IMG/VR virus record: IMGVR_UViG_3300042914_003776
Coordinates: 53,751 to 117,750 of that record
Reading direction: 5' to 3' (one strand)
DNA: 64,000 nucleotides
DNA from: a virus
Notes under the pieces: generated by a model
The model's input: the letters and a program-made list of their open reading frames with translations, nothing else
Told to the model about the DNA's origin: nothing
Databases searched by the model: none
Shown here: positions 327-15,511 of the stretch, in pieces
How the letters are laid out: every line of letters starts with the position of its first letter
How positions within the stretch are numbered: position 1 is the first letter of the stretch
Made by a program: the position numbers and the translations under genes

Positions 327-354
327 ATTATACACCAGAAAACCGAAAAGTCAA
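327..354 (-). promoter_or_regulatory. Sigma-70-type promoter for tRNA-Thr
   Basis: TTGACT (349-354) and TATAAT (327-332) with a 16-bp spacer; the tRNA begins 9 bases after the -10 box. Confidence 0.8.
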
Positions 355-394
355 CTGACTGCTCTAAATAGGTCCGCCCTTATTAATAGGGAAA

Positions 395-421
395 TAACAC
401 CCCCTACAAGAGGGGGCGTTT
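395..421 (-). terminator. Terminator after the gene at 427-618
   Basis: On the minus strand CCCCCTC..TAGGGGG forms a strong hairpin followed by a T-rich tract, directly behind the stop codon at 427. Confidence 0.6.
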
Positions 422-426
422 TCAGC

Positions 427-618
427 TCATGCACCTACGATAAAATTCATATATCTAGGCCGGGCGATCTGTATATTCGAAATATTTTCATACTTCTCAG
501 ACAGTTCTTCCCTGCATGCTATTTCATCAACACGGGGGTCATTCTTAACCCATTCTATGATATCATAAGTAATACCAATAGCTCCAGCCCGTCGTCCGTT
601 AAAAACTACTTCTGTCAT
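427..618 (-). CDS. Hypothetical 63-residue protein
   Basis: Begins MTEVVFNGRRAG. I chose the internal ATG at 618 because AGAGGG sits seven bases before it and overlaps the stop of the upstream gene; a longer frame would extend into that gene. Third gene of a tightly packed set (801-1355, 629-799, 427-618) served by the promoter at 1399-1427. No recognisable domain; charged and probably soluble. Confidence 0.6.
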   Translation of the reverse strand: MTEVVFNGRRAGAIGITYDIIEWVKNDPRVDEIACREELSEKYENISNIQIARPRYMNFIVGA

Positions 619-628
619 TTTATACCCT

Positions 629-799
629 CTATTGAGTTTCGAATGCGCCCTGAATTTCTTCAAGGCGCTCTACACGTTCACTAATTTCCTGAAAGAACTT
701 CCTGTCCTGCTGGTAACTATACCATGACATGGCAAAAAGCACAATACATAAAGCAAGAAATAAGTAAGAAAGACACGACATTATTTGTTCAAACTTCAT
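629..799 (-). CDS. Small single-pass membrane protein (56 aa)
   Basis: N-terminus MKFEQIMSC is followed by a hydrophobic stretch (about residues 9-25, LSYLFLALCIVLFAM). The C-terminal half is charged and helical and contains ERVERLEEIQ. The ATG follows the upstream stop by one base and has AGGAT in front. Layout resembles a small phage inner-membrane protein with a short cytoplasmic or periplasmic coil; it could be an i-spanin or an accessory peptide, which I cannot decide. Confidence 0.65.
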   Translation of the reverse strand: MKFEQIMSCLSYLFLALCIVLFAMSWYSYQQDRKFFQEISERVERLEEIQGAFETQ

Positions 800-800
800 T

Positions 801-1355
801 TTATCCTACTCGCTTTCCACACGGCGAACCGTCGAGCCATTCGCATACGCCCAAAAATTCTTTCGCAATCCACCCGTTAATAACCATGTTGTTTCTGTCA
901 CGACTCAGTTCTAATAGATCTAATATCGTGACCTGACGCTCACGTTGCTTCTCGTCCTTCTGCCGATACCACCTGCCTCTCAACTCATCTCGGTCTTCCC
1001 ACGTATACGGCACATACTGCGGAGCGATGCGGCGACGATAGGCAAACCCCACGCCTTGCTTTTTGTCGCTCCGAAAGTTAATAGATTTTTCCCATCGGTT
1101 GCCGTTTAAGAATTGATCACCTTCCTCTACATCTTCGTCAGGATGCAGCAATCGCCAGCCTTCTCCGAGGTCTGGTTCGTCCTTACATTTGCTGCATGGA
1201 CTGTCTTTCCATTCGCTGATGATTTCCGAGTGATATCTAGACAACATAACCCCACTCGCCAAACCCCATACTGTATTACGATTATCTATAGCAACTACTT
1301 CGAAAGCATAATCACAGTTTTTTACTTTGTAATTCTGTCCAACTTCAACTTTCAT
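801..1355 (-). CDS. Hypothetical protein, 184 aa
   Basis: Starts MKVEVGQNYKVKN. A longer frame exists, but the promoter -10 box at 1399-1404 would place the transcript start near 1392. The ATG at 1355 has a GGGG/TAGG ribosome site. Residues about 40-70 contain SPCSKCKDEPD and GWRLLHPDEDV; the central YVPYTWEDRDELRGRWY part is aromatic and charged. The CxxC pair could bind metal. No family recognised. First gene of a three-gene unit. Confidence 0.65.
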   Translation of the reverse strand: MKVEVGQNYKVKNCDYAFEVVAIDNRNTVWGLASGVMLSRYHSEIISEWKDSPCSKCKDEPDLGEGWRLLHPDEDVEEGDQFLNGNRWEKSINFRSDKKQGVGFAYRRRIAPQYVPYTWEDRDELRGRWYRQKDEKQRERQVTILDLLELSRDRNNMVINGWIAKEFLGVCEWLDGSPCGKRVG

Positions 1356-1398
1356 CCTATACCCCATATCTAAATAGAAAAAAATCTTTAACACACCA

Positions 1399-1427
1399 AT
1401 TATAAATATATATCGTATAAAAGTCAA
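1399..1427 (-). promoter_or_regulatory. Early promoter for 1355-427 unit
   Basis: TTGACT (1422-1427), 17-bp spacer containing ACGATATAT, TATAAT (1399-1404). Confidence 0.75.
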
Positions 1428-1475
1428 TAGAACATTAGAAGAAAGGGGAAGAAAGTTATGTACCACCCATAACTA

Positions 1476-1551
1476 CACCCCCCAACAGAGGGGACCCGGC
1501 CGGCCCGGCCCCCCCATTCGGGGGAGCCCCTCTCGGGGCTCCTCCTTTTGG
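1476..1551 (-). terminator. GC-rich composite terminator, copy 1
   Basis: Contains the recurring core ACCCGGCCGGCCCGG (1494-1508) flanked by CCCC..GGGG hairpins, including AGCCCCTCTCGGGGCT. It separates the gene ending at 1553/1635 from the promoter at 1399-1427. Confidence 0.65.
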
Positions 1552-1552
1552 G

Positions 1553-1651
1553 CTACCGTTCATTTCTGCCAGCTAGTACACCGATGATAAACAAAACAGC
1601 AATGAACAAAAATACATGTACACTGCCATCTTGACTATACAGCATTGGCAT
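1553..1651 (-). CDS. Small membrane peptide (32 aa)
   Basis: Reads MPMLYSQDGS, a hydrophobic core VFLFIAVLFIIGVLAG, then a charged RNER tail. It overlaps the 3' end of the DUF932 gene in another frame. An in-frame ATG at 1645 is an alternative start. One transmembrane helix with a positive end is typical of phage micro-proteins, but coding is not proven at this size. Confidence 0.45.
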   Translation of the reverse strand: MPMLYSQDGSVHVFLFIAVLFIIGVLAGRNER

Positions 1652-2582
1652 ACTCCATAGCTAGCTCCAAGGCAGTATCGTTAGTTTGACCGTTAGGCCC
1701 AAACCAGAGCGAACTCATGCGGTTATTAGAGTTACGTGAAGCATCATAGTTAAGGTACTGATTAACGCTGTTATATGCAGCCCACCAAGTACCGGAAGCG
1801 GTCTTCTGATAGTCATGATCGATCAAGTCGATAATGTTGTTCATCGTATTTTTGGTACGGGTGGACAAATCGGCTTCTTCGACGCGATCCTTACCCAAAA
1901 CAGCCTTGACGTACTTGCGAACGTCCGATTGGTTGAACATGCGAGAAGCCAAGAATCGGAACTGTTCGGCAGTCGCCTCAAATTCGGCATCGATATTGTT
2001 CATGACTTCATGCAACTTATCGAGAGCCATCTTGCTCGACTTGGTATGTCGAACGCGAACCAACTTGGAGGCATTAGACCCATGAGCCATTGCCAACGTA
2101 TTGGCACATACGATACGGATAGGCGTATAGCCTACACGAATCGCCAACGTACCATCGTGCGAATTGGACAGCATTAGGTACTTTAGCACCTCGTCGCCTG
2201 CAACGATTTCCGAAGGGGCTCGGTTGATCTTAGCCATCACCCAAATACGCTTTCCCTCATCGAGAGAACCGGCGGTTTCTAGGGCAACTTCGCCCGTTTC
2301 GATAAACGGGTTAAACCAACTGAAGGCGTCACGATTCTGGAGCGGTTGGTATCGTGGGCCGACCACACCAAGAATCTTTGTAACGTCACCGACTTGACGA
2401 CAAACCGCATTGGCTGGGGCATCGAGACCCGTCTTAGTTACAAGCGGGAGCAACGAAACGTCCCAATCAAGCCCGGCTAGCTTGATGCCTTCTTCGATGG
2501 TTGGCGGGCCGTCGAGAATCTCGCCCAAACCGTGCCAAGGGGTTTCCGTAACGCTGAACATGTTTTCAATCATAGCTGGCAT
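1635..2582 (-). CDS. DUF932 (phage/plasmid-like TIGR03299) protein
   Basis: 315 residues. The start at 2582 is preceded by AGAGGTG. Family signatures are visible: an N-terminal TPWHGLGEIL, then WDVSLLPL, VGPRYQPLQN near residue 75, AFSWFNPFIE, and a central LMLSNSHDGTLAIRVGYTPIRIVCANTL; the C-terminus has TWWAAYNSVNQYL. DUF932 proteins are common in large phages and plasmids and their biochemical role is not settled. This is the largest early gene but one in the first 10 kb and has its own consensus promoter (2622-2650). Confidence 0.88.
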   Translation of the reverse strand: MPAMIENMFSVTETPWHGLGEILDGPPTIEEGIKLAGLDWDVSLLPLVTKTGLDAPANAVCRQVGDVTKILGVVGPRYQPLQNRDAFSWFNPFIETGEVALETAGSLDEGKRIWVMAKINRAPSEIVAGDEVLKYLMLSNSHDGTLAIRVGYTPIRIVCANTLAMAHGSNASKLVRVRHTKSSKMALDKLHEVMNNIDAEFEATAEQFRFLASRMFNQSDVRKYVKAVLGKDRVEEADLSTRTKNTMNNIIDLIDHDYQKTASGTWWAAYNSVNQYLNYDASRNSNNRMSSLWFGPNGQTNDTALELAMEYANAV

Positions 2583-2621
2583 AAAGCACCTCTCAAAACA
2601 AAAAATAAACTCAACACTCAA

Positions 2622-2650
2622 ATTATAAGGTAAACACAAACAAAAGTCAA
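2622..2650 (-). promoter_or_regulatory. Early promoter for DUF932 gene
   Basis: TTGACT (2645-2650), 17-bp spacer, TATAAT (2622-2627). The stop codon of the upstream gene lies inside the -35 box. Confidence 0.75.
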
Positions 2651-2886
2651 TCGAATTCTTCGGAATCTTCTTCGGAATCTTCCGCGAACATCTTATCCCA
2701 GCAGGCACCACAAATACCACTGAGAAGCATTTCCCGTTGATCCGCTGGGATGTACCATAGGGCGTTTTGAATCAACACGCCACAGTCTTTCCACAGATCG
2801 TAGTCTTCCGACATGATTTCGAACTTGACATTCGTACCGCATTGGATACAATTACGTGAAATGTCCATTTTGGGTAGTCTAATCAT
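2647..2886 (-). CDS. Small zinc-ribbon-like acidic protein (79 aa)
   Basis: MIRLPKMDISRN then CIQC (about residues 13-16) and CGAC (about 60-63) suggest a four-cysteine metal site. The tail is strongly acidic (EDSEEDSEEFD). The ATG at 2886 has AAAGGAG in front; a longer frame from 2916 would start upstream of the probable transcript start. The acidic tail plus zinc knuckle could suit a protein-binding inhibitor, but that is inference. Confidence 0.7.
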   Translation of the reverse strand: MIRLPKMDISRNCIQCGTNVKFEIMSEDYDLWKDCGVLIQNALWYIPADQREMLLSGICGACWDKMFAEDSEEDSEEFD

Positions 2887-2907
2887 TGCTTTCTCCTTTG
2901 TCCTTTC

Positions 2908-2935
2908 ATTGTACAATAAATATCGGCAAAGTCAA
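2908..2935 (-). promoter_or_regulatory. Early promoter
   Basis: TTGACT (2930-2935), spacer with GCCGATA, TACAAT (2908-2913), 16-bp spacing; drives the gene starting at 2886. Confidence 0.7.
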
Positions 2936-2971
2936 GGGGCGGGCTTTAAAAAAAGAAAAAATATTTTATGA

Positions 2972-3025
2972 CCCCCCAGAAGAAGATCCCCCAAAAGAGG
3001 GGGCCGGGCCGGCCGGGCCCACCCC
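2972..3025 (-). terminator. GC-rich composite terminator, copy 2
   Basis: Core GCCGGGCCGGCCGGGCCC at 3003-3020 is the same motif as the other copies in the opposite orientation. CCCCC/GGGGG arms flank it and a T-rich stretch follows on the minus strand. Confidence 0.6.
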
Positions 3026-3046
3026 AAAGTAGGGTAAAAAATTTTA

Positions 3047-3090
3047 TAAAAAAAACCTACGATCTCGCTTCACAGCGATACCGTAGGTCA
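3047..3090 (-). terminator. Rho-independent terminator
   Basis: CCTACG..CGTAGG stem with an inner TATCGC/GCGA arm and a run of eight T, just after the stop at 3100. Confidence 0.8.
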
Positions 3091-3099
3091 CACAAAGGA

Positions 3100-3372
3100 T
3101 CAGAAGAAACGACCCAGAAACTTCGGTAATTTCAAATACCATGCCATTCTATCGGAATAGTATTTGCGATAACCTTTACGTTCTCTAAGAGTAACTAATT
3201 TAGTTCCTCTGAAGAACTCTGGATCATCTTGCCGGTACTTGCTATGCAAGTTAAGCCGGGCGTATTGTTGCTTAGTTAACTGTTGAATGTCCTCAATCTT
3301 ACCAACCCTGAAGCTACCACCGTTTACTGGTTGACAATACCAGCACAAGATTACATCGTCTTTTTGTACCAT
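3100..3372 (-). CDS. Hypothetical 90-residue basic protein
   Basis: MVQKDDVILCWYCQPVNGGSF followed by a basic central part (KQQYARLNLHSKYRQ) and an aromatic C-terminus (RMAWYLKLPKF). AGGAGA precedes the ATG at 3372. It forms a single-gene cassette: promoter 3393-3420, gene, terminator 3047-3090. No family recognised. Confidence 0.68.
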   Translation of the reverse strand: MVQKDDVILCWYCQPVNGGSFRVGKIEDIQQLTKQQYARLNLHSKYRQDDPEFFRGTKLVTLRERKGYRKYYSDRMAWYLKLPKFLGRFF

Positions 3373-3392
3373 AACTTTCTCCTTATGTCACT

Positions 3393-3420
3393 ATTATACA
3401 TTATCGGCAAAAGATGTCAA
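3393..3420 (-). promoter_or_regulatory. Early promoter
   Basis: TTGACA (3415-3420), 16-bp spacer with GCCGATAA, TATAAT (3393-3398). Confidence 0.85.
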
Positions 3421-3490
3421 GTACTTTTAGAAAAATCCATGCTAGAAATTACCCCAATTAGAATTAAAACAATTAAAAAAATAAATGAAA

Positions 3491-3838
3491 TCATATGAAA
3501 TCTTTCTTTAGTCTCAATACTTCATAAGTAAGCCCGGTCACCCCTTTAATTCTTTGGGGTACGCAAATATTTAATTCTTTTGTTCTTAATGCACCAAACC
3601 ACCCCTTGTAATATAAAACGACGTTGAGAGTCCAGCCGTCCGGCACGAAAAATCGCAACCTATCCTTGTTGATATGGTTAACATTATCATAGCGCACAAC
3701 ATAGTCGGAGTCAAGACCTACGGCACGATATGTAACGGGTTTCCATAGCCACGATTTGGGCAAATTAACTAAAACCTCATGATGAGATCCCTGCTTTCTA
3801 ATTAAGACATACGAAAAAAACAATGAACTAAACCACAT
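3491..3838 (-). CDS. Hypothetical protein with hydrophobic N-terminus (115 aa)
   Basis: N-terminus MWFSSLFFSYVLIRKQ could be a signal anchor. The rest is beta-like and aromatic (WKPVTYRAVGLDSDYVVRY, WTLNVVLYYKGWFG). AAGGAT precedes the start. No TTGACA promoter is visible upstream; instead TTTATATAAAGGAT overlaps the T-run of the terminator before it. Function unknown. Confidence 0.6.
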   Translation of the reverse strand: MWFSSLFFSYVLIRKQGSHHEVLVNLPKSWLWKPVTYRAVGLDSDYVVRYDNVNHINKDRLRFFVPDGWTLNVVLYYKGWFGALRTKELNICVPQRIKGVTGLTYEVLRLKKDFI

Positions 3839-3859
3839 TTTATTTATCCTTTATATAAA

Positions 3860-3890
3860 AAAAGGGGCCCCATTTCTGAGACCCCCCTAC
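3860..3890 (-). terminator. Rho-independent terminator
   Basis: GGGGTCTC..GGGGCCCC eight-pair stem (two G-T) followed by seven T on the minus strand, after the gene ending at 3905. Confidence 0.8.
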
Positions 3891-3904
3891 TCTGTCGATT
3901 TTGC

Positions 3905-4207
3905 TTATTCTTTGTTGTAGACTTTAACGACTTCTACAGCCAAGCCTGAAACGGCCTGTGGTGCTTCTAGATCGCCAAGATTAAACTGCAAGCTTGCAGA
4001 GGCGTCCTGAGTACCGTCTGTTACGGTATGAACAACGACGTAGTCAGTCTTTTGTGAAAGTCCTTCTAGAACTACACTATCAACTGCGGCGTCTAGCGTG
4101 ACTTCAGATACAACACCGCCATCAACGGTCTTGAGCACAACCACCTGAGAAACAACATCTTGCGAAACCGACAAAACCCAACTTACTTTTACATCTGCTA
4201 CCATCAT
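3905..4207 (-). CDS. Fibronectin/Ig-like single-domain protein (100 aa)
   Basis: Valine-rich alternating pattern (VKVSWVLSVSQD, DYVVVHTVTDGTQ, AVSGLAVEVVKVYNK) typical of a beta-sandwich such as a fibronectin type III-like fold. AAGGAG lies eight bases before the ATG at 4207. No transmembrane segment. Such domains often decorate virions, which would be unusual in this early arm; alternatively it is an intracellular binder. Family assignment is by pattern only. Confidence 0.6.
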   Translation of the reverse strand: MMVADVKVSWVLSVSQDVVSQVVVLKTVDGGVVSEVTLDAAVDSVVLEGLSQKTDYVVVHTVTDGTQDASASLQFNLGDLEAPQAVSGLAVEVVKVYNKE

Positions 4208-4281
4208 AGATAAATCTCCTTAAAATAAAAAAGTGAAAGCCTACTATATAATACCCAAAAACCGGGCACTATAATATTATT

Positions 4282-4452
4282 TTATAATAAAGATTCCACT
4301 TCGGAAAGAGTTAATAGCAGACTCATGGTGTCGTTCATTACATTAGCGTGCCATTCCCCACGTAACTTAACGAAACGGGTACAAGTGTACTCCGAGTTAC
4401 CCGAACCTTCGGTGAAAACAACAATTTTACTACCAATGCCAAAAAGTTTCAT
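4282..4452 (-). CDS. Hypothetical 56-residue protein
   Basis: Reads MKLFGIGSKIVVFTEGSGNS then TCTRFVKLRGEWHANVM and a leucine-rich end. AGGAG is eight bases before the ATG and overlaps the previous stop, so it is co-transcribed with the gene at 4456-4737. Small beta-strand-rich protein, no family recognised. Confidence 0.6.
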   Translation of the reverse strand: MKLFGIGSKIVVFTEGSGNSEYTCTRFVKLRGEWHANVMNDTMSLLLTLSEVESLL

Positions 4453-4455
4453 AAA

Positions 4456-4737
4456 CTATTCTCCTGAACCCTGTAATAAGTTTGACTCTTCTATTGTATC
4501 GTCTTGATCTTCTTTGTCAAGCTCGTCAATAAAATTTTCTATAGCATAATCAAAAGTTGGTCCGATAGAAGGATACATACTATAAACGTTGTCGTCAACC
4601 AACGATCCCCCAGCCTTCCATCGTTCATATTCTTCGGGCGCATAATCTTTAATAAACTGCTTAATAGACTTATAATCACGCATAAAGTTATTAAACATAT
4701 CCTGCATTTCATCTGGATCTAAACCTAAGTAGCTCAT
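4456..4737 (-). CDS. Hypothetical acidic 93-residue protein
   Basis: MSYLGLDPDEMQDMFNNFM, an all-helical N-terminal part, then EEYERWKAGG and an acidic tail (ELDKEDQDDTIEES). AAAGGAT precedes the start. First gene after the promoter at 4768-4796 and probably translated with 4282-4452. Function unknown. Confidence 0.65.
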   Translation of the reverse strand: MSYLGLDPDEMQDMFNNFMRDYKSIKQFIKDYAPEEYERWKAGGSLVDDNVYSMYPSIGPTFDYAIENFIDELDKEDQDDTIEESNLLQGSGE

Positions 4738-4767
4738 ACTATATCCTTTATTAAAGTATTTACCTTA

Positions 4768-4796
4768 ATTATACACTAGGGGCCGACTATTGTCAA
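4768..4796 (-). promoter_or_regulatory. Early promoter
   Basis: TTGACA (4791-4796), 17-bp spacer, TATAAT (4768-4773). Confidence 0.8.
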
Positions 4797-4848
4797 GAGC
4801 AAAAACTAAAATCCTACTGACTATTTTCCGTCACGGTCGCCCCTATTA

Positions 4849-4965
4849 TTAGGGGGATAACAGCCCCAGAAATAGGTTCTTGAAAAACACAACCGTAATA
4901 ACAAAAAAAGAAACATAAGTCCAGATAATAGAAATAATCTGAATAATTAAGCTGACTGCTCTCAT
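4849..4965 (-). CDS. Membrane micro-protein (38 aa)
   Basis: MRAVSLIIQIISIIWTYVSF followed by FVITVVFFKNLFLGLL: almost entirely hydrophobic, one or two membrane passes. GGAGG lies five bases before the ATG and a consensus promoter at 4979-5006. The stop codon falls inside a CCCCTA..TAGGGG hairpin repeat. The first codons (AGAGCAGTCAGC) match non-coding sequence near 175 and 360, suggesting that this 5' region has been copied elsewhere. Confidence 0.6.
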   Translation of the reverse strand: MRAVSLIIQIISIIWTYVSFFVITVVFFKNLFLGLLSP

Positions 4966-4978
4966 ATTGTCCTCCAGT

Positions 4979-5006
4979 ATTATACTATATCGGCCTTTAC
5001 TGTCAA
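4979..5006 (-). promoter_or_regulatory. Early promoter
   Basis: TTGACA (5001-5006), spacer with GCCGATA, TATAAT (4979-4984), 16-bp spacing. Confidence 0.82.
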
Positions 5007-5045
5007 TAGCTTGAGAATATTTTTTCTTTATTTTAAGCCCCACTT

Positions 5046-5085
5046 TAGAGGGGGCCCGGCCGGCCCGGTCCCCCCTTTCGGGGGG
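5046..5085 (-). terminator. GC-rich composite terminator, copy 3
   Basis: Core GGGCCCGGCCGGCCCGG (5053-5069) with a GGGGGA..CCCCCC arm pair; lies between the structured RNA terminator and the promoter at 4979. Confidence 0.6.
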
Positions 5086-5102
5086 ATCTTGGTGGCATAC
5101 AT

Positions 5103-5132
5103 AAAAAAAGGGGCCCTCCGTCGAGAGCCCCT
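5103..5132 (-). terminator. Rho-independent terminator of the 5.1-5.6 kb transcript
   Basis: GGGGCTCT..GGAGGGCCCC stem then seven T on the minus strand. Confidence 0.85.
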
Positions 5133-5640
5133 AAGTTATAGTTATATGTTTGGCTTGTAGCTTACCGCAGTATCTACAATTTTTAAACTCTTGCGAGTGC
5201 CAGATTCTTAATCACTCACCACTATTTTTTCTCTTTCAAGTGGGTCAAGGTGGGCGAATTATTAGGTTTATCCCGAAACCGGATGTTTAAAGTTGTCCCA
5301 AAACCGGCCTTTTTACCTCACCGAGAGGCGTTTTAGGTTGTCGCTAACCGGATGCCTCGCCATCGGCCCAAATGGCATTTACTTTTTAACGTGACAAAGG
5401 CTAACGACACGGATGGTTAAGCCATCAGCTTTCCGGAAGTTGCTAGTGCTGGAATCGAACCAACATACAACCATTCTAGCAAACGGCTATTCGCTGCATT
5501 ACCACGTTGCCAACGTCTCCCATTTTTGCTTCATATGCAAATAGGATGCTGGGATTTTGCACCCTTGTTTTAACGAGAAGAAGGGCCCTTTTTCTAATTC
5601 TCCGACCAGCTCTAGACTGGATTGGCAGCTTCTCTTCCTC
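5133..5640 (-). ncRNA. Structured untranslated transcript with tRNA-like parts
   Basis: A consensus promoter (5648-5675) and a strong terminator (5103-5132) delimit about 510 bases with no convincing protein frame. The minus strand shows a canonical T-arm (GTTGG-TTCGATT-CCAGC, 5448-5464), a D-arm-like GCA..TGC hairpin, and a TTTGC-ATATGAA-GCAAA hairpin (5525-5541). I could not assemble one full cloverleaf: no standard seven-pair acceptor closes around the T-arm. Downstream are three spaced repeats ending in AACCGG (+ strand; 5264-5282, 5291-5307, 5335-5351). Just before the terminator a start-less frame encodes NCRYCGKLQ, perhaps a gene remnant. It could be degenerate tRNAs, a tmRNA-like RNA or a regulatory RNA. 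Confidence 0.45.
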
Positions 5641-5647
5641 TCTTTTT

Positions 5648-5675: not shown

Positions 5676-5685
5676 GTACAAACTA

Positions 5686-8592: not shown

Positions 8593-8593
8593 A

Positions 8594-10042: not shown

Positions 10043-10059
10043 TTCAATTCCCCTTTGTG

Positions 10060-10248
10060 CTAATAATCGTACTGACCGTGATCCCAGTCATCGCCGCCCA
10101 TGTAATCCTGCCATTCCGTATATTCGTCCGGCTGGCCGTCGTCGTAGTTCTCGTTGGCTTCCTCGTCGCCCCAAAACTGGGCCATTTCCTCGGCGGTCAA
10201 CTCTGGGCCATTGAATTCATCGCACTGAGACTTTTCAAAACTAGACAT
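10060..10248 (-). CDS. Very acidic small protein with FExxQCDE N-terminus (62 aa)
   Basis: MSSFEKSQCDEFNGPELTAE then an Asp/Glu/Tyr/Trp-rich tail (GDDWDHGQYDY). Its first residues match those of two other small proteins (11476-11637 and 13566-13718) while the rest differs. High negative charge recalls phage DNA mimics, but this is inference only. Promoter at 10295-10322. Confidence 0.66.
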   Translation of the reverse strand: MSSFEKSQCDEFNGPELTAEEMAQFWGDEEANENYDDGQPDEYTEWQDYMGGDDWDHGQYDY

Positions 10249-10294
10249 TTTAATTCCCCTTTGTGTCTTTTCTATTAATCCTGCTGACTGTTTT

Positions 10295-10322
10295 ATTATA
10301 CAATATATATCGTCCTTGTCAA
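10295..10322 (-). promoter_or_regulatory. Early promoter
   Basis: TTGACA (10317-10322), 16-bp spacer, TATAAT (10295-10300). Confidence 0.82.
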
Positions 10323-10372
10323 GTGCCCGGCTGAAATAAAAAAAAGAATATTTCTTTTACCCCACCAAAAGA

Positions 10373-10425
10373 AGACCCCCCATTAGAGGGGGCCCGGCCG
10401 GCCCGGCGCCCCCCGTTAGAGGGGA
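10373..10425 (-). terminator. GC-rich composite terminator, copy 6
   Basis: CCCCTCTAACGGGGGG arm, CCGGGCCGGCCGGG core (10393-10406) and CCCCCTCTAATGGGGGG arm on the minus strand. Confidence 0.7.
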
Positions 10426-10440
10426 CTTACCCGACACCAC

Positions 10441-11202
10441 CTATCTGGAGTAGCTATGTTTGACCCCCTCCTTTTTGAGTACCTTGAGGGCCTCGGATGC
10501 TTCTGAACCCTTTGGCTGTACCCCATGAATGAGGAGCCCGAAACTGGTGTACCTCGTTTGGGGGTTGGCTGCGTGTTCATCGGTATGATCGATTTCCAAG
10601 CCTAGTTCAGTGGCTTGTTGTACACTGAACACAACTTTAGCATATCTTAGTTTATACTGTTCGATCAAGTAGTCCTCTCGACCCCCCTCGCTGGCGGTAA
10701 GCACTAGATTCTCTGGAATGTCATACAATCGGTTAACCCAGTATCGTACACTCTTGGTGTAAGCGTAGAATAAGCGGCCCGGGTTGTTTCGAGCAACTTC
10801 AATCCAAGCGTCAAAATAATCTTGGTTGAAAAAATCACCGGCAACATGAATCCGGCATACCCCTAAATCGTGGGGCATGCTAGACTGAATCGATTCGATC
10901 ATCTCGGCTTTAGTTAATGGCCGTAAAGCGTCGAAATTGTGCTTGCGTGAATTGTAAACGTTAGTGTATACTACTTCCTGCGAAGCGGAAAAGCAGCGGA
11001 GTTGAGTAGCCGGGCCATCTTTGATAGAACGTTTACCGTCTTTTAAAACGGCTTTAGATAGGCAATCCTTAGCGAATGGGCAAGAGTAGCCCGAAAGCAG
11101 GTCTAATGAATAAACCTTTCGGCCATCTTCCAAGTAAACAGCGATAGATTCTACTTCGGCAAGTGCTTCGATCTTTGCATTAGCTGGGCTGAATTTTAGC
11201 AT
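10441..11202 (-). CDS. GP88 (Gene product 88) family protein
   Basis: 253 residues. Family hallmarks: LLSGYSCPFAKDCLSKAV near residue 35, QLRCFSASQEVVYTNVYNSR, CRIHVAGDFFNQDYFDAWIE, LFYAYTKSVRYWV, LTASEGGREDYLI, and a C-terminal HTDEHAANP..LLIHGVQPKGS. The family occurs in mycobacteriophages, other phages and plasmids; its activity is unknown, although conserved Cys, His and Asp suggest an enzyme or metal protein. Start at 11202 with ACACAAAGGA leader; promoter at 11240-11267. Confidence 0.88.
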   Translation of the reverse strand: MLKFSPANAKIEALAEVESIAVYLEDGRKVYSLDLLSGYSCPFAKDCLSKAVLKDGKRSIKDGPATQLRCFSASQEVVYTNVYNSRKHNFDALRPLTKAEMIESIQSSMPHDLGVCRIHVAGDFFNQDYFDAWIEVARNNPGRLFYAYTKSVRYWVNRLYDIPENLVLTASEGGREDYLIEQYKLRYAKVVFSVQQATELGLEIDHTDEHAANPQTRYTSFGLLIHGVQPKGSEASEALKVLKKEGVKHSYSR

Positions 11203-11239
11203 TTCTTTGTTCCTTTGTGTTATTGCCTTTGACTCTCTT

Positions 11240-11267
11240 ATTATACAATATCGGCAACCGTTGTCAA
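11240..11267 (-). promoter_or_regulatory. Promoter of the GP88 gene
   Basis: TTGACA (11262-11267), spacer with GCCGATA, TATAAT (11240-11245), 16-bp spacing. Confidence 0.85.
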
Positions 11268-11320
11268 GTACTTAAATTTATTTTTTATAAAATCCTGCTG
11301 ACCCTACTAATGGGGGATAC

Positions 11321-11434
11321 GCTAGAAAAAAACTTTTTTGATTTTATTTTATACCCCCCGAAAGAGTGTACCCAGATAGACACCCCCCAAAAGAGGGGGC
11401 CCGGCCGGCCCGGCTCCCCCCTTCGGAGGGGTAT
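11321..11434 (-). terminator. GC-rich composite terminator, copy 7, with A/T palindrome
   Basis: CCCCTCCGAAGGGGGG arm, CCGGGCCGGCCGGG core (11400-11413) and CCCCCTCTTTTGGGGGG arm. A second part ends with AGAAAAAAACTTTTTTGATT, which recurs near 12751 and 14198. Confidence 0.68.
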
Positions 11435-11475
11435 CCCACCACAAGATACTACCCCCGAGAGAGGAGCCCACGCTA

Positions 11476-11637
11476 CTATACCGCTAAATCGCTGACCCCC
11501 ATATCGGATTCGAACTGGTGGAAAAATGCTTCGTTGTAAATCGCCGTCGATTCGATGAAGGCTTCCAGCTCCAAGAGGTCTTCTTGGGTTGGCATGTAAA
11601 CTTCGTCGCACTGCTGAGTTTCAAAAACGTTTTCCAT
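11476..11637 (-). CDS. Acidic small protein with VFExxQCDEV N-terminus (53 aa)
   Basis: MENVFETQQCDEVYMPTQED then a helical acidic remainder (LLELEAFIEST, FFHQFESDMG). I start it at 11637 where ACAAAGGATTAGGA precedes the ATG. The N-terminal motif is shared with 10060-10248 and 13566-13718. Promoter at 11681-11708. Confidence 0.65.
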   Translation of the reverse strand: MENVFETQQCDEVYMPTQEDLLELEAFIESTAIYNEAFFHQFESDMGVSDLAV

Positions 11638-11680
11638 TTTCCTAATCCTTTGTGTGATAGAACGTCTTTCGTATGTCTCT

Positions 11681-11708
11681 ATTATACAGTATCGGCCCGG
11701 TTTGTCAA
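11681..11708 (-). promoter_or_regulatory. Early promoter
   Basis: TTGACA (11703-11708), spacer CCGGGCCGATA, TATAAT (11681-11686), 16-bp spacing. Confidence 0.85.
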
Positions 11709-11713
11709 GAACT

Positions 11714-11908
11714 TTATTGAAAAATCTTAGTTGGAGTCCAGAATTTTGGACGGGCTCGGAACGGCCCTTCTTCGTCACAGAACATCATTCCATCGGGGGT
11801 ACAATAATTCCATTCGCTGAAAATTTCATACCACTTTACCCAACCTTCATCGGTTAGAATTGGCGACCCGTCTTTTGGGGCGGTTTCAATTGGTTGAATA
11901 TCAATCAT
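11714..11908 (-). CDS. QPIETAPKDG-type small phage protein (64 aa)
   Basis: MIDIQPIETAPKDGSPILTD is the well-known start of short phage and prophage proteins (DUF551-like); the rest, EGWVKWYEIFSEWNYCTPDG, also fits, with conserved tryptophans. Role unknown. AAGGACTGGA precedes the ATG. Promoter at 11940-11967. Confidence 0.75.
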   Translation of the reverse strand: MIDIQPIETAPKDGSPILTDEGWVKWYEIFSEWNYCTPDGMMFCDEEGPFRARPKFWTPTKIFQ

Positions 11909-11939
11909 TTTCCAGTCCTTTTTCTGATTAGCTGATTAT

Positions 11940-11967
11940 ATTATATCTTATTTATCGGCCTTGTCAA
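11940..11967 (-). promoter_or_regulatory. Early promoter
   Basis: TTGACA (11962-11967), spacer with GCCGATAA, TATAAT (11940-11945; a second TATAAT overlaps at 11935-11940). Confidence 0.8.
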
Positions 11968-12017
11968 GACTAAAATTTAGCTGAATGCCAAAATCTCAGT
12001 GACTATTACCTATCCCA

Positions 12018-12037
12018 GCCGCCCCTATTTATAGGGG
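12018..12037. repeat. CCCCTA-TAGGGG hairpin repeat
   Basis: GCCCCTATTTATAGGGG is a near-perfect dyad; a second copy is at 12102-12121. Related hairpins: 186-202 (CCCTTAGTAGTAGGGG), 377-390, 4839-4857, 9808-9830. Several are preceded by CTGACT(A/G)(T/C)T about 20 bases before. Confidence 0.6.
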
Positions 12038-12101
12038 TGTTACACACCACAAAATTCTGCTGACCCGGAAATCCTACTGACCATTCACCCAAAAACACGC
12101 C

Positions 12102-12121
12102 CCTATTTATAGGGGCGCTAC
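12102..12121. repeat. CCCCTA-TAGGGG hairpin repeat, second copy
   Basis: GCCCCTATTTATAGGGGC dyad. On the minus strand the centre reads TATAAATA. Confidence 0.6.
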
Positions 12122-12123
12122 AC

Positions 12124-12186
12124 CCGCCCGCCCGAGGCCCCCCGCTAGGGGGGTCAGGCCACCCAGTCGGGGGGGATAGCCCCCCT
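12124..12186 (-). terminator. G/C hairpin cluster after 12197-12532
   Basis: CCCCCC..GGGGGG arms (for example GGCCCCCCGCTAGGGGGGTC) follow the stop codon; no CCGGCCGG core in this copy. Confidence 0.55.
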
Positions 12187-12196
12187 TTCGAGCGTA

Positions 12197-12532
12197 CTAC
12201 TCAAAGTCATCGGCGTCGATTATACCTGCACGGATGGCCACCGTAACGAACGCGATTTCCTTTCGGTATACCATATCCTCATCGATATTGTATTGGATAT
12301 CGCCTTCTGGATTCGCTTCAAGCTGGGCCCGGTAATTTGCTACCCGAGCAGCTTTTTCGTTTTTGTGTTGCCTATGCTTGGAAGTCTTTTTTGTGGCGAT
12401 ACCTACCGCCTTTGCGAGAACACGTAGCGAACGAATACTACCGCCTTTCGAACGGTATTCAGCTTTCAAGTGCTTGTTGGCAAGGCCGAAAGCGTTTTCA
12501 ATCGCAATGTCTAGTTCTGTGAAATCGTACAT
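12197..12532 (-). CDS. Hypothetical basic 111-residue protein
   Basis: MYDFTELDIAIENAFGLANK then a basic segment (YRSKGGSIRSLRVLAKAVGI, KKTSKHRQHKNEKAAR) and an acidic C-terminus (ADDFE). The basic middle suggests nucleic-acid binding. The start at 12532 follows CACACAAAGGAAA; the open frame continues upstream without ribosome site. Transcribed from a non-standard promoter region shared with 13790-13984. Confidence 0.66.
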   Translation of the reverse strand: MYDFTELDIAIENAFGLANKHLKAEYRSKGGSIRSLRVLAKAVGIATKKTSKHRQHKNEKAARVANYRAQLEANPEGDIQYNIDEDMVYRKEIAFVTVAIRAGIIDADDFE

Positions 12533-12569
12533 TCTTTTTTTCCTTTGTGTGAGATAAACTTGCCTTACA

Positions 12570-12740
12570 CTACTATAACCGCACAAACTAAACAAGATTA
12601 ACAGGTCCGATTTATATTTTGTGATAAAAAGATTTTTTGATTGTCGTAAGTTGTTATATCGCATAGACTTGTAGCACGAAATTATTTTACAACTTTTTTT
12701 TGGCACGATATTTGCAATAGATATAGTATAAAAGGGGGGG
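12570..12740. repeat. Duplicated regulatory region, copy A
   Basis: Matches 14021-14195 over about 170 bp: ACTATAACCGCA, AAGATTAACAGGTC, GATTTATATTTTGT, TCGTCGTAAGT-like and TTTTTTGGCACGATATTTGC blocks are kept while sequence between them differs. The leftward side lies directly before the leader of 12197-12532 in the place where other genes have TTGACA/TATAAT. Confidence 0.7.
12701..12716 (+). promoter_or_regulatory. Sigma-54-type -24/-12 element, copy A
   Basis: TGGCACGATATTTGCA: GG and GC are separated by ten bases, an exact fit to TGGCACG-N4-TTGCA. It points rightward, against the local genes. Confidence 0.5.
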
Positions 12741-12745
12741 GAATA

Positions 12746-12870
12746 TAGAAAAAACTTTTGTGATTTTATTACACACCCCCCTAACGGGTGGTCTCACATA
12801 TACACCCCCCAAAAGGGGGGCCGGGAGCCCCCGGTCCCCCCGTTAGAGGGGGTATCCCCCCTTCTGGGCT
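12746..12870. terminator. GC-rich composite element, divergent copy 8
   Basis: GAAAAAACTTTTGTGATT, then CACCCCCCTAACGGGTGG, then CCCCCCAAAAGGGGGGCC and GGGAGCCCCCGG arms. The CCGGCCGG core has been lost or replaced. Confidence 0.55.
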
Positions 12871-12983
12871 ACCACCCCCCCCGTTCAGGTGGTTTTCAAA
12901 AAAATAAGAAAAGTTTTTTTCTGGAGCATCCCCCGATAGAGGGACGCCCCAAAGAGTGGCTGGGTTGCCACCCCCCTTTCGGG

Positions 12984-13196
12984 CTACATGGCTTGGATCT
13001 TTGCCAACCCCACTTCTAGGTTAGTTCGCAAGAGGCGGTAATCGTCTTGGCTTAAATAAACCTGTTCGCCTACTTTGTTGAAAACGTCGTGAGTTTCGTA
13101 GCTTCGTTCTTCCTCATGTTCTAAGGTAGATACCACGGTGAAACCGTTGGTTAGGTTGTACTTGATTGTTCGTTCATTTACTTTTTCTACTAGCAT
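12984..13196 (-). CDS. Small beta-strand protein (70 aa), paralogue of 14422-14640
   Basis: MLVEKVNERTIKYNLTNGFT then VVSTLEHEEERSYETHDVFN and VGEQVYLSQDDYRLL. It shares a pattern with 14422-14640: G-hydrophobic-x-V-V/I-x-T-x-E, acidic turn, YE, then N-x-G-E. ACACAAAGGA leader and promoter 13234-13261. Function unknown. Confidence 0.66.
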   Translation of the reverse strand: MLVEKVNERTIKYNLTNGFTVVSTLEHEEERSYETHDVFNKVGEQVYLSQDDYRLLRTNLEVGLAKIQAM

Positions 13197-13233
13197 CTTT
13201 TTTTCCTTTGTGTTAGTTGCTTTCTACTCTTCT

Positions 13234-13261
13234 ATTATACCTTATCGGCCCGGCTTGTCAA
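13234..13261 (-). promoter_or_regulatory. Early promoter
   Basis: TTGACA (13256-13261), spacer GCCGGGCCGATAA, TATAAT (13234-13239), 16-bp spacing. Confidence 0.86.
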
Positions 13262-13267
13262 GAGACT

Positions 13268-13405
13268 TTAAAGATATTTTAAAGCTTTTTCTGCTTGGGC
13301 CTTTAATCCCTCAAAAAGCTTGCGGGTTTCTTCGCTAATTCCTTCTTGCGATAGAAGGTCTTCGATGGCTTCGATTGCTTGTTTGATGTTTTTGTAGTAG
13401 TTCAT
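13268..13405 (-). CDS. Helical micro-protein (45 aa)
   Basis: MNYYKNIKQAIEAIEDLLSQ then EGISEETRKLFEGLKAQAEK: two amphipathic helices. AAAAGGAAAAAAG leader. It lies about 115 bases downstream of the promoter at 13521-13548; the long leader contains a second AAAGGA, another TTGACT and a GGCGAAAGCC hairpin. Confidence 0.62.
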   Translation of the reverse strand: MNYYKNIKQAIEAIEDLLSQEGISEETRKLFEGLKAQAEKALKYL

Positions 13406-13520
13406 TTTCTTTTTTCCTTTTGTGTTTTGTTTTGTTTTGTTTCGATCAAGCCACGTTAGGTTTGTTATCGGCTTTCGCCTTCCGTTTTAGTCAAGCAACT
13501 TTTTGTTTTTCCTTTTCTTT
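13406..13520 (-). promoter_or_regulatory. Long leader or emptied cassette
   Basis: The minus-strand transcript from 13521-13548 first reaches AAAAGGAAAAAC without an ATG, then TTGACT (13489-13494), a GGC-GAAA-GCC hairpin, GCCGATAA, and the ACACAAAAGGA leader. It looks like a promoter-leader unit whose gene was deleted, or a regulatory leader. Confidence 0.45.
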
Positions 13521-13548
13521 ATTATACCTTATCGGCCGGGCTTGTCAA
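13521..13548 (-). promoter_or_regulatory. Early promoter
   Basis: TTGACA (13543-13548), spacer with CCCGGCCGATAA, TATAAT (13521-13526), 16-bp spacing. Confidence 0.85.
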
Positions 13549-13565
13549 GTCTCTTGAGTCATTTT

Positions 13566-13718
13566 TTAGAAGAAATTTAAAATTTCTTCCAAGGCAGCTT
13601 CTAGTTCTTCCGACATCCCCGATTCAGGGGATTCTTCGTTCACTTCTTCAATCCAGATCAATTCGATTTCGACCGATTCTAGTACTTCATCCGATTGTAG
13701 ATTCTCAAAAACGTTCAT
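13566..13718 (-). CDS. Acidic micro-protein with VFExxQxDEV N-terminus (50 aa)
   Basis: MNVFENLQSDEVLESVEIEL then an almost all-acidic helical remainder (EEVNEESPESGMSEELEAAL). First residues match 11476-11637 and 10060-10248. ACACAAAGGA leader; promoter 13756-13783. Confidence 0.65.
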   Translation of the reverse strand: MNVFENLQSDEVLESVEIELIWIEEVNEESPESGMSEELEAALEEILNFF

Positions 13719-13755
13719 TTCTTTTTTCCTTTGTGTTATTGTCTTCGTTTTCTCT

Positions 13756-13783
13756 ATTATACTCTATCGACCAACTTTGTCAA
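13756..13783 (-). promoter_or_regulatory. Early promoter
   Basis: TTGACA (13778-13783), spacer with CGATA, TATAAT (13756-13761), 16-bp spacing. Confidence 0.84.
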
Positions 13784-13789
13784 GAGACT

Positions 13790-13984
13790 TTATTGAATTT
13801 CTTCAAATTTCTTTTCGAGATATTTTAAATCGTTTGAACGATTTCTGCAATTTCTTGGCGATCCCTCACCGTATGCAATCCAATACTTCTTTGACAATGC
13901 AAAATATTCTTTTTTACCATTGCCAGCTTCTACGATGCTAACCTTAACACCACTTTTTAAAACTTTGCTTTTTAGAATGTTCAT
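13790..13984 (-). CDS. Hypothetical basic 64-residue protein
   Basis: MNILKSKVLKSGVKVSIVEA, a beta-like KEYFALSKKYWIAYGEG segment, then a basic RNCRNRSNDLKYLEKKFEE helix. The start at 13984 follows AAGGAAAAAAG. Like 12197-12532 it is preceded by the duplicated region rather than by a TTGACA/TATAAT promoter. Confidence 0.63.
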   Translation of the reverse strand: MNILKSKVLKSGVKVSIVEAGNGKKEYFALSKKYWIAYGEGSPRNCRNRSNDLKYLEKKFEEIQ

Positions 13985-14020
13985 TTCTTTTTTCCTTATT
14001 TTAAACTTTTGTTCTCTTCT

Positions 14021-14195
14021 ACCACTATAACCGCAGAAAACAAATAAGATTAACAGGTCTGATTTATATTTTGTTGCAAAAAGATTTTTTCGTCGTCGTA
14101 AGTCATTGGTAGATAACAACTTATGATTCGAAATTATTTTTAAAATATTTTTTGGCACGATATTTGCACTGCTTGTAGTACAAAAGGGGGGTATT
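14021..14195. repeat. Duplicated regulatory region, copy B
   Basis: Second copy of the 12570-12740 region, placed before 13790-13984. Confidence 0.7.
14153..14168 (+). promoter_or_regulatory. Sigma-54-type -24/-12 element, copy B
   Basis: TGGCACGATATTTGCA, identical to 12701-12716 although the bases around it have diverged. Confidence 0.5.
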
Positions 14196-14330
14196 GCAGA
14201 AAAAAACTTTTTTGATTTTATTGTGACCCACCCAGAAGAGGGGGTATTTGAGAGATCCCCCAAAAGGGGGGTTCCGGGCCGGCCCGGCCCCCTCGTTCGG
14301 GGGGATATCCCCCCTTTCAGGCTACACCCC
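14196..14330. terminator. GC-rich composite element, copy 9
   Basis: GAAAAAAACTTTTTTGATTT, CCACCCAGAAGAGGGGG, CCCCCAAAAGGGGGG, the core CCGGGCCGGCCCGG (14275-14288) and CCCCCCTTTCAGGC arms. A further A/T palindrome and a CCCAGAAGGGGG hairpin follow at 14345-14400. Confidence 0.62.
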
Positions 14331-14421
14331 CCCATTCGGGTGGAGTTTAGAAAAAAACTTTTTTCTTTTTTTTCTCGTACCACCCAGAAGGGGGATCACC
14401 CCCCTTCCTAGCGTACCACCA

Positions 14422-14640
14422 CTATCCAGCAAGTTTTTCCAACATTTTTAACGTCCATGCGGGGCCACTAGGAAGCGGGTGCATTTCCCCGGCAGGATTG
14501 TAGAGGGTGCATTCTTCATAGTATCGGTCGTCGTCCCATTCTGTGGTTACGATAACATACCATCCGGTTTTAAAGGTAAACTTTGTGGCTCTGTTTGCGA
14601 TGGTTTCGATGAGTTGGATAGAAGAAGTTTGTTCGTCCAT
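14422..14640 (-). CDS. Small beta-strand protein (72 aa), paralogue of 12984-13196
   Basis: MDEQTSSIQLIETIANRATK then FTFKTGWYVIVTTEWDDDRY and ECTLYNPAGEMHPL. Shares the strand-turn-strand pattern of 12984-13196. ACACAAAGGA leader and promoter 14676-14704. Function unknown. Confidence 0.65.
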   Translation of the reverse strand: MDEQTSSIQLIETIANRATKFTFKTGWYVIVTTEWDDDRYYEECTLYNPAGEMHPLPSGPAWTLKMLEKLAG

Positions 14641-14675
14641 TTTTTTTCCTTTGTGTTTGTGTCTCGTATGTTCTT

Positions 14676-14704
14676 ATTATACCTTATCGGCCCAACCCCG
14701 TCAA
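14676..14704 (-). promoter_or_regulatory. Early promoter
   Basis: TTGACG (14699-14704), 17-bp spacer with GGGCCGATAA, TATAAT (14676-14681). Confidence 0.8.
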
Positions 14705-14733
14705 GAGTTGAGCCGAATTTTTTTTTATTTTTT

Positions 14734-14931
14734 TTATCTTACAATGGCCAACTTTGGAACTAGGCTTTTAGGCCCTTGTCGAATGTCAATTGCGGTTCCG
14801 TCCTTGCAAACTAGCATGATAGGAATCATCCAGTAGTCCTCTCCATCATATTCAATCAAGAAAACATACTTGGTTCCGGCGTCAAGAGCAACTTCGTTGA
14901 GACCTACGGTGAACATGTTTAGCTTTTCCAT
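14734..14931 (-). CDS. Hypothetical 65-residue protein
   Basis: MEKLNMFTVGLNEVALDAGT then a beta-rich stretch (YVFLIEYDGEDYWMIPIMLV) and a proline/lysine end. ACACAAAGGA leader preceded by CGAAAGACAGTTT, a leader shared with 15030-15206 and 15284-15445. Promoter 14973-15001. Confidence 0.65.
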   Translation of the reverse strand: MEKLNMFTVGLNEVALDAGTKYVFLIEYDGEDYWMIPIMLVCKDGTAIDIRQGPKSLVPKLAIVR

Positions 14932-14972
14932 TTTTTCTTTCCTTTGTGTGAAACTGTCTTTCGTATGTTTGT

Positions 14973-15001
14973 ATTATACAATATCGACTCAACCCCGTCA
15001 A
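14973..15001 (-). promoter_or_regulatory. Early promoter
   Basis: TTGACG (14996-15001), 17-bp spacer with GTCGATA, TATAAT (14973-14978). Confidence 0.8.
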
Positions 15002-15029
15002 GAGTTGAGCCGAATTTTTTTTATTTTTT

Positions 15030-15206
15030 TTATTGGAACATATCCATTGCGATTGCGTGAAGTTCACAAGAATAGTTGTTCGTCAAGTAATCGCATTCCG
15101 CATCCGTCAATGGGCGATTTTCGACGATATGCCAGCCACCCCGGCAGAACACGGTATCATCGGCAGGTTCTAGTTCTAGGTCGATAACTTGGTTGATTGT
15201 AATCAT
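15030..15206 (-). CDS. Hypothetical 58-residue protein
   Basis: MITINQVIDLELEPADDTVF, then CRGGWHIVENRPLTDAECDY and a cysteine-containing helical end. ACACAAAGGA precedes the ATG. Compact and acidic; not recognised. Promoter 15250-15278. Confidence 0.65.
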   Translation of the reverse strand: MITINQVIDLELEPADDTVFCRGGWHIVENRPLTDAECDYLTNNYSCELHAIAMDMFQ

Positions 15207-15249
15207 TTTTTCTTTCCTTTGTGTTTGAAACTGTCTTTCGTATGTTCTT

Positions 15250-15278
15250 ATTATACCTTATCGACCAATCTTGGTCAA
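15250..15278 (-). promoter_or_regulatory. Early promoter
   Basis: TTGACC (15273-15278), 17-bp spacer with GTCGATAA, TATAAT (15250-15255). Confidence 0.78.
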
Positions 15279-15283
15279 GAGCT

Positions 15284-15445
15284 TTAACCTAAAATTCCGT
15301 TTTTATTTTTAACCACTTCAACTAAGTAGCTATAGCTCTTGCTGGTATGAACCGTACCATCCGCACAGCGAGCAATAAAATATTGCTGCTTTGTTCCGCG
15401 CAATCGGCACTCGATTTTCCAAACTAGTTTTTCTGTACTAAACAT
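15284..15445 (-). CDS. Hypothetical basic 53-residue protein
   Basis: MFSTEKLVWKIECRLRGTKQ then QYFIARCADGTVHTSKSYSY: beta-strand-rich and basic. Leader CACACAAGGAAA. First gene of the dense 10-15.4 kb array; its promoter (15484-15511) follows a region with dyad sites. Confidence 0.63.
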   Translation of the reverse strand: MFSTEKLVWKIECRLRGTKQQYFIARCADGTVHTSKSYSYLVEVVKNKNGILG

Positions 15446-15483
15446 TTTTTTTCCTTGTGTGAAACTGTCTTTCGTATGCTCTT

Positions 15484-15511
15484 ATTATACTCTAATTATC
15501 GCCATTGTCAA
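15484..15511 (-). promoter_or_regulatory. Early promoter
   Basis: TTGACA (15506-15511), 16-bp spacer with GGCGATAA, TATAAT (15484-15489). Confidence 0.83.

Follow-up and report, generated by a model that had tools for sequence, protein, structure and literature searches.

We describe an array of small genes and repeated leftward promoters in a 64,000-nt stretch of viral DNA (hereafter the window), which corresponds to positions 53,751–117,750 of the IMG/VR virus record IMGVR_UViG_3300042914_003776 (G000; 117,750 bases). The original prediction had placed at least 27 leftward promoters between positions 327 and 15511, and the set that we curated for this interval numbered 27. The predicted span captured the right half of the array, which does not start at 327 and instead goes on leftward, with approximately 10 more leftward promoters, to about G000:35.2 kb, for a total of about 34 kb in a genome of about 158.4 kb. 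We consider it probable that this array is made up of mostly one-gene units that are reshuffled by recombination at repeated regulatory parts, in a phage clade that probably infects Planctomycetota.

Approximately 38 genes, with a median length of 70 amino acids (aa), were located on the minus strand between 427 and 15445. Most units comprised one to three genes encoding 45–110 aa, in keeping with the earlier claim of one to a few tiny genes per promoter, and the exceptions were a 315-aa phrog_1221 protein, a 253-aa GP88-like protein, and a 196-aa HhH protein. The array had also been proposed to specify about 40 unknown small early proteins; the description of a large set of small proteins stood, as only three of the ~38 had meaningful Pfam matches (GP88, L5 gp82, and Ogg-HhH), whereas "early" is not visible from sequence. 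Open reading frame (ORF) calls in the arrays were mechanical; 37 same-strand ORFs were called within the right-hand 17.3 kb, and 10 of them had a homologue in another array. The upstream regions of unrelated genes in the window were 70–94% alike. Moreover, one unit was present in duplicate on the minus strand, the first copy (12527–13196) consisting of g12984 and the ~375 nt of border region between it and the gene that comes after, and the second (13979–14640) of g14422 and its border region.

Promoters and border blocks of the window

The promoters of the array conform to TTGAC-N15-18-TATAAT and point leftward. A mechanical scan of window positions 1–16000, requiring at least 11 of 12 matches, recovered 27 sites, 26 of which were on the minus strand, and the same scan at this threshold found no promoter-like site in the adjacent late region (17500–33500). 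The curated 27 comprise scan matches plus near-consensus cases; at a looser threshold of 9 of 12 there were 65 matches, as against 33.1 ± 5.3 in shuffles. Additionally, we identified a directional spacer motif, GCCGATAA, which the original prediction had overlooked and which is conserved across the clade. CGAT was present in 21 of the 27 window spacers, a count that was not attained in any of 20,000 shuffles (mean 1.26); its reverse, ATCG, was present in one. Eleven copies of GCCGATA were found on the minus strand of 1–15600, ten inside array promoters and the eleventh (13466) in a decayed promoter. Across the clade, CGATA occurred in 99 of 255 promoter-like sequences, and CGAT took two registers, starting mainly at −13/−12 or −8/−7 from the −10 hexamer. 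The bacterial genome contigs that we searched for the same promoter contained 13 scattered exact matches and no array of it.

All curated promoters are on the minus strand. Those with a GCCGATAA spacer are at 3393–3420, 11940–11967, 13234–13261, 13521–13548, and 14676–14704 (TTGACG), the entire upstream region of the last sharing 83% identity with its counterpart in the next unit. A GCCGATA spacer was present at 2908–2935 (TTGACT/TACAAT), 4979–5006, 7161–7190 (TTGACG/TATAAG), 11240–11267, and 11681–11708; GTCGATAA at 6370–6397 (just upstream of a tRNA gene), 9745–9772, and 15250–15278 (TTGACC); and GTCGATA at 13756–13783 and 14973–15001 (TTGACG). GCGATAA was found both in the first promoter of the array (15484–15511), which lies beside divergent late genes, and in a promoter-like site (TTGACA/TAAAAT) within an upstream gene at 7907–7935. 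The remaining spacers contained ACGATA (1399–1427), ACGATAA (5648–5675), GACGAT (8775–8802), GACGATA (10295–10322), or GATCG (9442–9469), and CGAT was missing from the promoters at 327–354 (TTGACT-16-TATAAT, within the repeat GAGCAGTCAGTTGAC), 2622–2650 (that of the 315-aa phrog_1221 protein), 4768–4796, 6991–7018, and 7562–7590 (within the end of the upstream gene). The decayed promoter, CTTGACT...GCCGATAAC (13463–13496, minus strand), has no −10 element and is situated between a live promoter and its gene. A further promoter-like match (4493–4520) sits inside a gene and is doubtful, and the units of g12197 and g13790 seem to have a different leftward promoter.

Hairpins or GC-rich blocks had been said to separate many units, and we found nine copies of a GC-rich hairpin block of ~49 nt between them, with the form CCCCCC-loop-AGAGGGGG-CCCGGCCGGCCCGG-CCCCCC-loop-AGAGGGG. 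These form a repeat family and are on the minus strand at 1478–1526 (a C-run/G-run dyad, a GGCCGGCC core, and a second dyad), 2987–3035 (right dyad degenerate, matching the other copies best when inverted), 5038–5086, 7223–7271 (the reference copy), 8839–8887, 10376–10424, 11383–11431, 12803–12851 (core diverged), and 14256–14304. The blocks matched no known RNA family in Rfam. From the stop codon of a unit to the −35 element of its neighbor, the order was block, A/T-rich stretch, promoter. Finally, two sigma54-like sites, TGGCACGATATTTGC, were located on the plus strand, against the array direction, at 12701–12715 and 14153–14167.

Several other features were noted in this part of the window. 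Another repeat family, in which CTGACT(G/A)... precedes a hairpin of the GCCCCTATT-TATAGGGG type, is represented at 158–216, 348–406, 4809–4855, 4945–4982, 9784–9830, and 11991–12115, and one copy runs straight into a TTGAC box. The tRNA gene (6175–6356, minus strand) has an insert of ~110 nt between the anticodon arm and the T arm, which contains the complementary pair AAGAATTTTTAGA/TCTAAAAAGTCTT; it scored 36.6 bits against the Rfam tRNA model, was not called by ARAGORN, and has an anticodon loop that looks to be 8 nt long. A second tRNA-like stretch with a GTTGGTTCGATTCCAGCACTAGCA end (5400–5640, minus strand), for which neither ARAGORN nor Rfam gave a call, lies behind the promoter at 5675 and has no clear ORF. 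Between the array and the late genes, an AT-rich gene on the minus strand (15756–16700) encodes a 314-aa protein in which GIY-YIG-like and HNH-like stretches were seen by eye, and which is probably a homing endonuclease.

Related arrays and their borders

Same-strand promoter arrays were present in 15 related records, of which 14 encode a terminase 51–68% identical to that of the window phage and have the array on the side away from it. One record, G004, is a fragment that nearly repeats G005. Same-strand promoters in the relatives numbered, for example, 30, 29, 22, 21, and 20, with zero or one on the opposite strand (e.g. 30/0, 29/0, and 22/0), and G016 was less clean (16 same-strand, 6 opposite). 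About half or more of the related records had the CGAT motif in most of their promoters. In L110, g13790, g12197, and a g11476-like gene served as anchors in kept order, with different genes between them; gene content turns over between the arrays of the clade.

Every relative has its own dispersed border, built on a common plan of dyad, GC-rich core, dyad, A/T-rich stretch, and promoter. The dyads of many relatives have the form GNCNTAARYCCTT-N7-AAGGRYTTANGNC (13-7-13), the center being exactly 7 in 93 of 97, and pairs of them are exactly 53 bp apart in 58 of 65 close pairs. Another group of relatives has the dyad TGCCAAAATGGCA, with pairs exactly 29 bp apart in 20 of 21 cases. Within the 53-bp family, the arms of one dyad did not covary at their inner positions, and the inner arms of the two dyads covaried with each other (z of 4.7 and 6.1). 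An interpretation of the 13-7-13 dyads as RNA hairpins was rejected on the basis of the missing covariation within a dyad, of perfect dyads being rarer than in shuffles (32 versus 41.6), and of folds that were only modestly stable. The window itself has no 53-bp dyad pair, and has the C/G-rich blocks and the two sigma54-like sites instead.

The sigma54-like sequence, TGGCAYR-N4-TTGC (with GG-N10-GC), was found at 36 sites in the window and the arrays of the relatives, as against 0.8 in shuffles; 29 of these are opposite to the array direction, and four are repeats in G004. Chance, which had been considered for the two TGGCACG-N4-TTGC sites of the window, was rejected once the 36 sites had appeared in the clade. 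For the copy at 12700, a sigma70 reading (TTGGCA-16-TATAGT) is possible. Sigma54-like sites mostly lie on the promoter side of the dyads and point toward them. In a separate scan of IMG/VR for dyad/sigma54 composites, allowing gaps of 4–24, we recovered 71 distinct composites with a predominant gap of 10 (20 cases) or 11 (27 cases); the dyad was complete in 63, and a second dyad was exactly 53 bp away in 42. By motif and by this spacing of 10–11 nt to the dyad edge, the sites resemble sigma54-dependent promoters. The distance from the GC element of a sigma54 promoter to +1 is usually eleven bases, and a sigma54 transcript would therefore start at the dyad edge. Back-to-back sigma54-like sites ~16 nt apart were seen in the G016 array (13729–13790, from L240) and in L260, where they adjoin a double dyad and resemble a divergent sigma54 promoter pair. 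A phage-encoded sigma54 (PF04552) was absent from the 117.7-kb record G000, so that any sigma54 would be that of the host, and sigma54 promoters are known in Planctomycetota (PMC12316311).

Tentatively, and with the odds rather against it, we put forward that the border is a new composite control element. It would combine two 13-7-13 dyads exactly 53 bp (five helical turns) apart, a GC core between them, and a sigma54-type promoter 10–11 nt off, backed onto the sigma70 promoter with its GCCGATAA spacer, and might act as a phage-wide switch timing each one-gene unit as well as a crossover site for shuffling. Such a switch would take the form of a sigma54-driven structured RNA, or of an insulator or enhancer that binds protein. 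In a phage, a sigma54-like component would be unusual.

Turnover of units and the probable host

That whole units are gained and lost, as had been predicted, was borne out in comparisons of relatives. The breakpoint test covered close pairs among relatives of the window phage, several of them from a more distant group found via the phrog_1221 protein, and clean indels were defined as having at most 10 nt on one side, at least 90 nt on the other, and flanks above 82%. Some contigs came from the same sampling series, and the independence of events refers to clustering by insert sequence. We recovered 86 independent clean indels (median 254 nt), 47 of which contained exactly one full ORF. Only 11 of the 86 had an end in a coding interior, versus 61.7 ± 4.0 for random placements, while both ends were at start-codon zones in 25 (0.86 expected) and in promoters in two (0.09 expected).

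Ribosome-binding/start sites were the most frequent location of breakpoints, which were also seen in promoters and whole border blocks. The proposal of recombination between flanking repeats was supported only in part: 29 events had direct repeats of at least 18 nt, and most lacked these. Some of the direct repeats corresponded to whole border blocks, of 89 and 44 nt, or to whole promoter regions, of 84, 35, 26, and 25 nt: the repeat was the whole 89-nt border in L066/L067, a 44-nt border in L096/L097, and an 84-nt promoter region together with the 5′ untranslated region in L160/L176. In L064/L073, the empty allele was a chimera in which the left flank gave way to the right flank inside the promoter, between TTGACAA and GCCGATAAGG. 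L160 and L176 also had near-identical promoters followed by unrelated genes, and a 92%-identical gene was preceded by a sigma54-like site in L160 and by TTGACATGGCCGATAAGTATGGTATAAT in L176 and L238. Genes and promoters are also swapped separately.

With respect to the host, the phage encodes two DUF1501 proteins along with a pilin-like DUF1559 (SBP_bac_10) protein that carries an N-methylation motif, in a region (L188:7632–11656; G001 139.6–143.7 kb) of families typical of Planctomycetota. The DUF1559 protein matched Planctomycetota plasmids only (four of four) and no phage record, and both families were found in other clade members too. DUF1501 alone is unspecific, as two control genomes also matched. 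Taken together, the DUF1559 and DUF1501 genes make a Planctomycetota host likely. Two Planctomycetota plasmids contained no dyads or arrays, and the open-access literature, when searched for phages of this phylum, gave no relevant paper.

The phage also encodes a RecA-family protein. Tyrosine recombinase (PF00589) was absent from 12 clade records and the Y1/RAYT transposase (PF01797) from 13, and a site-specific recombinase or RAYT as mover of the units was rejected on these grounds.

The genome size was obtained from a second record, G001 (IMGVR_UViG_3300042879_003909; 158,520 bases), which is identical to G000 across the 17 kb compared. Its ends overlap by 122 bases within G000, to which the end of L189 aligns at 100%, as does the start of L184, and the genome is therefore circular or circularly permuted. 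A diverged tandem/dispersed repeat array, with copies 75–90% alike, sits where the G001 record was opened (G001 ~157.9 kb to 0.8 kb; G000 ~44.6–46.4 kb and ~49.1–50.4 kb). No DNA-level match to the window was found among INPHARED phages, and the terminase (20740–22722) was at best 26% identical to those of isolates; relatives are encoded on hundreds of environmental contigs. The helicase is DnaB-type, and the DNA polymerase III alpha carries an intein, the intein-like domain lying at its end (L186:10873–13557). A PhoH protein with a LAGLIDADG insert was also noted (L187:6226–7917).

Explanations for the array

In the explanation that we favor, each unit consists of a border block, an A/T-rich stretch, a sigma70-type promoter, usually with the GCCGATAA spacer, and a ribosome-binding site with one to three tiny genes. 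The promoters, border blocks, and ribosome-binding/start regions would provide short homologies between otherwise unrelated genes, at which recombination, probably by a RecA/UvsX-like pathway of the phage, would add, delete, and swap single units and exchange promoters between genes, with every unit retaining its start signal and border through the shuffling. The promoters may fire early, the borders may act as insulators or terminators, and the products of the array may act on the host. The observed part of this explanation comprises the layout, its conservation in the clade, indels of whole units that end at regulatory parts, gene swaps behind a kept promoter, and a promoter swap before one gene.

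Several points weigh against it. Direct repeats of at least 18 nt accompany only 29 of 86 events, and the commonest breakpoint is the ribosome-binding/start zone rather than the promoter or the block. Coding sequence would likewise stay free of breakpoints if only selection against broken genes were at work. Moreover, the promoter-rich arrays closest to the window give few close pairs, and one of these, L109/L110 (98.8%), had no indel. The direct repeats that span whole modules and the chimeric alleles nevertheless argue for recombination at the modules, with selection explaining part of the pattern.

Selection has a larger role in a rather unlikely account, in which the array is an early module for host takeover, of the kind seen in SPO1 and Kayvirus, with strong sigma70 promoters for dosage, illegitimate recombination filtered by selection, and border repeats that arise incidentally from common promoters and terminators. 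In favor of this account, the module of SPO1 has 26 genes, mostly small and early, in a 12.4-kb terminal region (PMC6873191), and Kayvirus 515A1 has 58 early sigma70 promoters (PMC7698491). The scarcity of long direct repeats at most indels would also fit, but whole-block and promoter direct repeats, promoter-internal chimeras, and near-identical promoters before unrelated genes exceed what selection alone would give, and the rigid border geometry is unlike a generic terminator. Slightly less likely again is that the blocks are simple intrinsic terminators whose repeats reflect terminator composition, a reading that is compatible with shuffling. Some blocks of the window (e.g. 7222–7240 and 10373–10395) were flagged as terminator-like, and blocks sit between a stop codon and the next promoter; yet the T-runs begin several bases past the stems, the 13-7-13 arms lack covariation, the spacing is fixed to the base, and terminator-like matches were 1.9 times those in shuffled sequence in the array and the late region alike. 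Finally, we think it very unlikely that the blocks, with their two dyads, GC core, and frequent sigma54-like site, are the target of a dedicated enzyme (a recombinase, or a REPIN/RAYT-like transposase) that moves units actively. The exactness of the 53-bp pairing and of the 7-nt center would suit such an enzyme, as would the whole blocks flanking two insertions, but neither PF00589 nor PF01797 turned up in the 12 and 13 clade records searched, respectively, the junctions are homologous chimeras rather than precise site-to-site joins, and the blocks are uninvolved in most events.

PeSL (promoter/stem-loop) cassettes of T4-type phages were reportedly described by Arbiol et al. in 2010 and Comeau et al. 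in 2014. The array resembles PeSL shuffling in T4-type phages (PMC4503421) in that a composite of hairpin and sigma70 promoter, of putatively early type, recurs between small variable genes. In the window and its relatives, blocks sit shortly upstream of the next −35 element, and breakpoints between related phages lie at composites, here in a minority of the 86 events among relatives. Unlike T4-type phages, the window phage is not T4-like by its terminase, polymerase, and helicase types, its array has the GCCGATAA spacer motif, the double-dyad border, and the sigma54-like site, and ribosome-binding/start zones are also common breakpoints. The original prediction of a PeSL-like layout with different sequence elements agrees with this, as positions 1–49000 of T4 and of SPO1 contained no CGAT-spacer promoter, paired dyad, or sigma54-like site. 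In its mode of action the array is like T4 PeSL shuffling, yet it falls outside the PeSL family.

The SPO1 host-takeover module and the early promoters of Herelleviridae share with the array dense small genes of unknown function and strong sigma70 promoters, and differ, in the SPO1 interval above, in having none of the three motifs; to our knowledge, no shuffling of units at promoters has been described for this group. Mycobacteriophage stoperators are likewise directional short motifs that recur at or close to many promoters within a single phage genome, with a repressor site that overlaps the −35 element, whereas GCCGATAA occupies two registers of the spacer and no repressor was identified. 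The BIME/REPIN elements of bacteria, too, are scattered between genes and consist of two imperfect palindromes joined by a linker that varies; the borders differ in being phage-borne, with a fixed 53-bp spacing and a coupling to the sigma54-like site and promoter, and in the absence of RAYT from 13 records. The absence of a tyrosine recombinase from 12 records likewise distinguishes the array from an integron-like array of recombinase targets.

T4-type phages were already known to shuffle tiny accessory genes at promoter/stem-loop composites. That the same happens with unrelated parts in a clade that is distant and uncultured suggests a general way in which phages keep a changeable set of small genes. 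The array also yields a lead on the host, a promoter code (GCCGATAA), a border geometry exact to the base, and dozens of small candidate anti-host proteins.

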